A DNA stretch of 64,000 nt from an uncultured Clostridia bacterium (GTDB taxonomy: Bacteria; Bacillota; Clostridia; Christensenellales; CAG-314): positions 54,189 through 118,188 of the forward strand of contig CANPXV010000004.1 of assembly GCA_947586855.1 (NCBI GenBank), given 5' to 3'. Below the pieces are notes generated by a model, which was given only the letters and a program-made list of their open reading frames with translations, searched no databases and was not told the origin of the DNA. Every line of letters begins with the position of its first letter. The stretch's first letter is position 1. A program made the position numbers and the translations under genes. Below, in pieces: positions 63,206 to 64,000 of the stretch.

Positions 63206-63280
63206 TGGAGCGGGAGACGGGATTCGGACCCGCGATATCTGCCTTGGCAAGGCAGCGCTCTACCACTGAGCCACTCTCGC
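63206..63280 (-). tRNA. tRNA-Gly(GCC), copy with one acceptor-stem mismatch
   Basis: GCGAGAGTGGCTCAGTGGTAGAGCGCTGCCTTGCCAAGGCAGATATCGCGGGTCCGAATCCCGTCTCCCGCTCCA; anticodon GCC; followed by a CCCGAAC/GTTCGGG hairpin. Confidence 0.9.
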
Positions 63281-63628
63281 AAAATGCTGTTTGGTGCGGA
63301 TAAAACATACTGGCACCTGTTTCCGAGGAAAAAGAAAGACTATCTTGAATATTTCAACTCTATAAAATTTGATTGGGGTTCAAGTAGTGCTTAAAAAAAT
63401 TCTTCCTTTTGGCAAAACCTAAGGTCAAAACTCGACACAAAATGTTACCAAAAATGTTACCAAACGCAAATTTGCATCTTTTTCCGAGGTGCAAATTTTG
63501 ATTGTACGACAGGCATAATCGGCAAAGACAACGATGTAAGTATAAATTCAAAATGGTTAGTTGTCCCTAAAAAACGCACAAAAATAAAGAAAAACAGGTA
63601 CTTTATTGTTAAAAATACCTGTTTTTCG

Positions 63629-63776
63629 TGGAGCGGGAGACGGGATTCGATTTTGAAAACCTGCGCAACACGCGGGTCCGAATCTCCAACATAACAAAAC
63701 TACACTCTGTGCGTGATGTTTCCCGACTTAACTACAACACAAAAGAAATACCCGAACAAAATGTCCGGGTATTTCG
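63629..63776 (-). repeat. Tandem unit 1: tRNA-Gly 3'-end fragment + inverted T-arm hairpin
   Basis: TGGAGCGGGAGACGGGATTCG as in the tRNA 3' end, then ATTTTGAAAACCTGCGCAACACGCGGGTCCGAATCTCC. Confidence 0.8.
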
Positions 63777-63923
63777 TGGAGCGGGAGACGGGATTCGATT
63801 TTGAAAACCCGCGCAACACGCGGGTCCGAATCCCCAACATATCAAAACACACTACGTGCGTTATATTTTCCAACTTCACTACAACATAAAAGAAATACCC
63901 GAACAAAATGTTCGGGTATTTCG
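63777..63923 (-). repeat. Tandem unit 2: tRNA-Gly 3'-end fragment + inverted T-arm hairpin
   Basis: Same layout as unit 1, 147 versus 148 bp; spacer also similar (ACAAAAGAAATACCCGAAC...). Confidence 0.8.
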
Positions 63924-63998
63924 TGGAGCGGGAGACGGGATTCGGACCCGCGATATCTGCCTTGGCAAGGCAGCGCTCTACCACTGAGCCACTCCCGC
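63924..63998 (-). tRNA. tRNA-Gly(GCC), intact copy
   Basis: Identical to copy 1 except a fully paired acceptor stem GCGGGAG/CTCCCGC; anticodon GCC; encoded CCA. Confidence 0.95.
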
Positions 63999-64000
63999 AA

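Follow-up and report, generated by a model that had tools for sequence, protein, structure and literature searches.

Tandem repeat units behind tRNA-Gly(GCC) in a Clostridia bacterium: an apparent new lineage laid out like the RtT repeats of Escherichia coli

Introduction

Among the peculiarities of the E. coli tyrT operon are the RtT repeats, which were recognised decades ago and are still poorly understood. In E. coli K-12, 178-bp repeats follow tyrV, each containing the last 19 nt of tRNA-Tyr; they are annotated as RttR and are matched by the RtT RNA family (Rfam RF00391). Among the further operons read, repeats of a tRNA's own end, 18–19 nt long, are also present at proK, serX (three copies), lysV and the argQ-argV cluster, and no repeat of the own tRNA end is found at hisR-proM, proL or serT. 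RF00391, which has a gathering score of 45 bits, recognises the tyrV, proK, serX and lysV loci (control scores of 46–138 bits); the 18–19 nt tRNA-end copies in the argQ/argZ/argV spacers (L295) are unmatched by it. A passage of PMC4986893, citing Bosl and Kersten 1991, describes RtT as an RNA set free from tRNA operons, for which a role when amino acids are limiting has been proposed, and a length change of the rtT tandem repeat is listed for Salmonella (PMC2658671). In the literature searched, which covered Bosl and Kersten 1991 through its citation, we found no account of comparable units in Clostridia.

Here we describe two tRNA-Gly fragments in the window (the whole 64,000-nucleotide stretch of DNA that was analysed, from an uncultured Clostridia bacterium), together with related units behind other tRNA genes. 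With a probability of roughly 0.7, the window fragments are gene-less units of the E. coli tyrT/RtT kind, presumably inserted at the T-loop, in arrays that were reshaped by recombination.

Results

The window carries an intact tRNA-Gly(GCC) at its edge (63998–63924, minus strand; called by ARAGORN, 69.9 bits with Rfam), followed on the same strand by two units of 147 bp (unit 1, 63777–63923) and 148 bp (unit 2, 63629–63776). A second tRNA-Gly(GCC) lies further on (63206–63280, minus strand; ARAGORN and Rfam) and is also called as intact. The initial annotation had described two units of about 147 bp between two tRNA-Gly copies, the second at 63206, and both ARAGORN and the start-to-start spacing of 147–148 bp bear this out. 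The contig (118,188 bp) stops at window base 64000, which limits what can be said of copy number and of what lies upstream of the tRNA at the edge. Contig C7 was considered as the neighbour of this contig (C4) and ruled out, as its end carries tRNA-Tyr and not tRNA-Leu.

On the plus strand each unit contains TGGAGCGGGAGACGGGATTCG, an adjoining terminator-like hairpin and ATTTTGAAAACCCGCGCAACACGCGGGTCCGAATCCCC, from which unit 2 deviates at single bases; the tRNA 3' end, terminator hairpin and inverted T-arm copy attributed earlier to each unit are there in sequence and position. Read on the minus strand, unit 1 opens with the terminator-like hairpin, which adjoins the CCA with which the edge tRNA ends (63892–63922; inverted repeat I7), followed by a spacer of ~56 nt and then by the block GGGGATTCGGACCCGCG-TGTTG-CGCGGG-TTTTCAAAAT-CGAATCCCGTCTCCCGCTCCA. 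The first 17 nt of this block (63819–63835) copy the T-arm of the tRNA in inverted orientation and without a break, and the last 21 nt (63777–63797) are the own 3' end of tRNA-Gly(GCC), from T-loop base C56 to CCA. We denote the order X'-loop-X1-core-X2, with X' the inverted T-arm, X1 the T-arm 5' strand and X2 the tRNA 3' end. As read from the sequence, X1 of unit 1 is CGCGGG (63808–63813) and is followed by a 10-nt core (63807–63798), such that the direct T-arm copy of the window units is split by a short core and the inverted copy is unbroken. Unit 2 has the same layout and is slightly degenerate (X', 63671–63687; 21-nt X2, 63629–63649; both minus strand). In unit 1, X' complements the tRNA without mismatch for 16 nt, and in unit 2 for 14 nt, an exactness far beyond chance.

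Beyond unit 2 there is a hairpin and what is probably a decayed end of an integrase element (63380–63627). This segment aligns with a G012 segment situated between tRNA-Gly and a truncated integrase-type sequence, and also with remnants in G009 and G013. The second tRNA-Gly has the native flanks of the locus by comparison with relatives, where tRNA-Gly(GCC) is the final gene of a tRNA operon; directly upstream of it, the tRNA-Leu gene is reduced to its last 13 nt (63292–63304, minus strand), matching the 3' end of the tRNA-Leu upstream of tRNA-Gly in those relatives. The fourth acceptor-stem pair of the second tRNA-Gly is an A-C mismatch, and this gene may be decaying. The T-loop of both tRNA-Gly genes in several species of the genus is GGGTCCGA (window 63924–63998; L026 3255–3328), with C rather than T at position 55, where T is near-universal.

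A covariance model of the window hairpin was built from 14 hairpins and run on 25 genomes of the genus, each a different species, and on other genera sampled in the order. Strong matches are present in nine of the 25, and no strong match was found in any other sampled genus. The comparison with relatives proposed at the outset thus yields homologous hairpins in 9/25 species, which indicates that the window units are not a misassembly. The alternative, that collapsed or chimeric repeats were joined at the contig end, can point to a contig end that falls inside a repeat and to a fragmented assembly (36 contigs), but the same arrangement recurs in independent assemblies of other species, in some well inside contigs (e.g. 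G005), and the same class is present in complete genomes (G070 and E. coli K-12); an artefact is accordingly very improbable.

In every case where a contig extends upstream of them, the hairpins of the genus sit behind tRNA-Gly(GCC); the contigs of G006 and G013 start inside the array. In three of the four multi-unit arrays, distant copies have decayed more than those close to the tRNA, with scores, in order of distance from the tRNA, of 82.7, 84.6, 60.3 and 49.2 bits in G005, 87.8, 87.8 and 25.3 bits in G013, and 72.2 and 65.4 bits in the window; the array of G008 has no gradient by score. Covariation in the window hairpin type does not exceed that of shuffles (pair counts, 14 units), so that selection on base pairing is not evident there, and the window hairpin as a conserved RNA was set aside.

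The initial annotation had suggested that the units could be serial att scars. On this reading each unit would be the leftover of a tyrosine-integrase element that had integrated at the tRNA-Gly 3' end and then disappeared or suffered an internal deletion. The premise of the annotation, that tRNA-Gly(GCC) is an integrase target, is well founded: G014 and G018 contain ~17 kb elements that are bounded by the tRNA-Gly(GCC) 3' end and have integrase-type sequence next to the tRNA, the integrase of the G014 element matches Pfam integrase domains, and other element ends occur at this site in G002, G008 and G010. The units have the same T-loop-to-CCA boundary as the att sites of the G014 and G018 elements, and the remnant after unit 2 and the decay gradient also fit with scars. 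What found no support is the idea that attP carries the inverted T-arm, which is absent from all five element ends examined (G002, G008, G010, G014, G018); on these grounds the hairpin as attP arm of the local integrase elements was rejected. There is no integrase gene within the units, the only trace being the decayed remnant after unit 2. Moreover, units at different tRNAs have motifs in common and a narrow length range, which is not expected of scars from unrelated elements, and the units proved to be a regular companion of many tRNA genes, which largely corresponds to the finding (units in relatives with no link to mobile elements) that the annotation itself had named as counting against scars. 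The window units are not simply att scars, and serial scarring is an unlikely account of them.

Two further features of these insertions can be noted. The G014 element (L074; G014:C4:100900–120000) is ~17.3 kb long and encodes, besides its integrase, a C5 and an N6/N4 DNA methylase and a PAPS-reductase-type protein. In G010, 619 bp full of GATGATATAC-type palindromes are inserted after tRNA-Gly and separate it from a displaced copy of its 3' end (L033 3990–4630).

A scan for recurrence of a tRNA's own 3' end within 650 bp downstream of operon-end tRNAs shows that the arrangement is not confined to tRNA-Gly(GCC). Recurrences were found at 11 of 27 operon-end tRNAs in the genome of the window (one of these being a whole-tRNA pseudo-copy), at 7/17 in G022, at 3/21 and 3/20 in two genomes from other genera of the family, and at 2/25 in G070, a single-contig genome from another family. 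Pooling the loci that were fetched gives 49 distinct units at 20 tRNA species. All 21 nt of the tRNA 3' end are matched in 31 of the 49, and identity stops exactly at C56 in 42, a count partly shaped by the 21-nt search tail and drawn from loci partly fetched for carrying units, such that these are not frequencies. Unit lengths span 98–220 bp with a peak at 180–185 bp, and there is no gene inside the units.

The core motif of a 182-bp family, ATGTAGCGCTCCACTTCGTTTCGCTNACCCTG, occurs in 29 copies in 13 species of the genus and is followed by a tRNA 3' end in 29/29; most copies lie behind an assembled copy of the same tRNA, typically 114–119 nt downstream. An Rfam search of the 182-bp units returned tRNA alone, plus weak matches far below cut-off. 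The tRNA-Gly(TCC) site is empty in five genomes and filled, with a matching flank, in four others. Units behind different tRNAs share motifs, and the nearest relative of a unit is sometimes at another tRNA; neighbouring units within one array are often most alike.

This last observation, together with the variation of rtT copy number as a tandem repeat in Salmonella (PMC2658671), would suit an origin by duplication only, in which template switching at the T-arm hairpin produced a founding inverted duplication that was then amplified in tandem and subject to gene conversion with the tRNA, with no mobility. The related motifs behind many tRNAs and kinships that cross from one tRNA to another argue against it, as do the precise empty and filled sites and the constant boundaries at the T-loop and CCA. 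We rate duplication alone as rather unlikely, slightly behind serial scarring.

The 40-nt core AGCCGAGCGAAGCGAAC was considered as a tRNA-only element, which was rejected as it is also dispersed in G366. In G366, AGCCGAGCGAAGCGAACGCCACG is scattered through intergenic regions (10 copies), and in the genus of the window it forms the core of tRNA-linked units (L121–L133; G366, G217). At tRNA-Ile(GAT) of G031 (L219) there is a tandem array of 99-bp units in a stretch that is partly N, and the repeat extends further into the T-arm (32 nt). Exact-pattern scans of IMG/VR, made with a viral origin in mind, gave no match, and a phage search matched tRNA-Met genes or short tRNA-like stretches alone.

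Over 18 units, X' agrees more closely with the tRNA of its own locus than with other tRNAs (0/10,000 permutations reach the observed sum); several single units have no clear X' match. In the 182-bp subfamily, changes in the tRNA end go along with changes in the inverted copy: 17 units at nine tRNA species keep X':X2 pairs beyond shuffles (0/20,000 reach the observed value). Kinship among units inflates such tests, and the fairer figure is that with one unit per tRNA, where 309/20,000 shuffles do as well. Within this subfamily the pair at tRNA base 57 alternates between U-A and C-G in step with the tRNA.

The E. coli units provide the closest parallel. X' is present at tyrV, proK, serX and lysV (0/300 shuffles) and weak at argV (0.03), and the order X'-loop-X1-core-X2, which as a class feature was derived in this analysis from the E. 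coli units, is found at tyrV, proK, serX and lysV as well as in the window units. The inverted T-arm at lysV is exact over 13 nt (L299). RF00391 matches neither the window nor any other Clostridial locus tested, relaxed thresholds included, and we therefore call the Clostridial units 'laid out like RtT' rather than RtT; judged by sequence, they appear to be a new, analogous lineage with the layout of the known RtT kind. This is evidence that the RtT-like kind is broader than its Rfam family and its known examples.

A conserved function as RNA would offer another explanation: the unit would be transcribed by read-through from the tRNA and act as a small RNA, as proposed for RtT RNA, the tRNA end being kept for processing. 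The alternative put forward in the initial annotation, that the units could be expressed tRNA-like fragments, would likewise have a precedent in the RtT RNA of E. coli. It would be in keeping with the release of RtT RNA from tRNA operons as given in that passage of PMC4986893, with the covarying structure of the 182-bp subfamily and with the terminator-like hairpins in the units. Set against it are the patchy presence and decay of units even inside one genus and the lack of excess covariation in the window type, and we consider such a function quite unlikely as the reason for the units, below even duplication alone.

We also looked for an enzyme that might mobilise the units, and none was found among the recombinases read. 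An Xer-like recombinase of 299–315 aa (L279, L280, L281, L282) and a multi-copy tyrosine recombinase of ~302 aa were each considered and dropped, as neither has a clear link to the units. The former is present in four unit-bearing species, is 81–85% identical among them, scores below all XerC/XerD cut-offs and lies near tRNA-Leu(CAG) in two of them. Some members of the latter family (L275, L276, L278, L283–L285, L287–L289) seem to have short inverted repeats of their own on either side (e.g. CTATTAG/CTAATAG), as in invertible switches. Six recombinases from unit-bearing genomes, part of the total there, score below the integron-integrase cut-off.

Discussion

The constant boundaries of the units at the T-loop (mostly C56) and CCA, the X' match in many of them, their tandem arrays, the related units behind many tRNAs and the comparable empty and filled tRNA-Gly(TCC) sites are direct observations. 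On the reading of the units as RtT-like insertions, they would have entered tRNA genes by a T-loop-specific insertion that left the tRNA intact, most likely through site-specific recombination supplied in trans, and the arrays would then have grown and shrunk by recombination between repeats. X' would pair with X2, folding the orphan tRNA end into a hairpin that may be either a single-strand form used in recombination or an RNA that hides the false tRNA end. Several points speak against this reading, namely the lack of an RF00391 match, the failure to find a mobiliser, the units without clear X', the weaker one-per-tRNA test (309/20,000) and the absence of excess covariation in the window type, and it does not account for how X' comes to match each new tRNA.

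A more far-reaching idea, which we think possible though doubtful, is that RtT and the Clostridial units form one ancient class of gene-less mobile cassettes inserting at the tRNA T-loop. A guide-like antisense T-arm, fitted to each host tRNA, would belong to the substrate of recombination, which would be a single strand in folded form. Arrays would accrete at tRNA 3' ends somewhat like integron cassettes.

What was a local oddity of E. coli becomes a general class now that its layout is found in distant Clostridia at many tRNA genes, where the inverted T-arm follows the host tRNA. Natural variants are available by the dozen, as are covarying pairs and sites with and without a unit, so that the origin of the class by insertion, by duplication or through RNA function is directly testable. 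There is also a caution for annotation, as RtT-like units resemble att scars, cause assemblies to break off at tRNA genes and yield spurious short ORFs.

The units can be compared with four known systems. Like MITE- and REP-like repeats they are short, gene-less and hairpin-rich, and the core AGCCGAGCGAAGCGAAC is dispersed in G366 as well; unlike them, their direct repeat is a tRNA end rather than a short target duplication, and the 182-bp family motif has a tRNA 3' end after it in every one of its 29 copies. With integron attC sites and cassette arrays they share an imperfect, bulged hairpin with covarying arms and a tandem arrangement in which, in some arrays, the better-kept copies are nearest the entry point. 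In contrast to integrons, the repeat in the units is the tRNA end, there are no cassette genes, none of the recombinases read was recognised as an integron integrase, and the window units are without attC boxes, a reading of units 1 and 2 giving no RYYYAAC and GTTRRRY pair at the hairpin base.

The att sites of tyrosine-integrase elements in tRNA genes are alike in that the tRNA 3' end is repeated from T-loop to CCA, at a tRNA that real elements have taken in G014 and G018, whereas the units are found, with motifs in common, at many tRNAs, lack an integrase gene and have the inverted T-arm that is missing from the element ends. The nearest counterpart is E. coli RtT, whose units (134–181 bp, each ending in the last 18–19 nt of that tRNA) are, as in Clostridia, gene-less, located behind tRNA genes on the same strand and tandem at some loci. 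The repeat usually starts at C56 (21 nt) in the Clostridial units and at A58/A59 in E. coli RtT, and the window units differ by their short core of 8–10 nt. The Clostridial units, described here from sequence, occur at more tRNA species than E. coli RtT. Both share a single order of parts: terminator, inverted T-arm, T-arm 5' strand, core and tRNA end.
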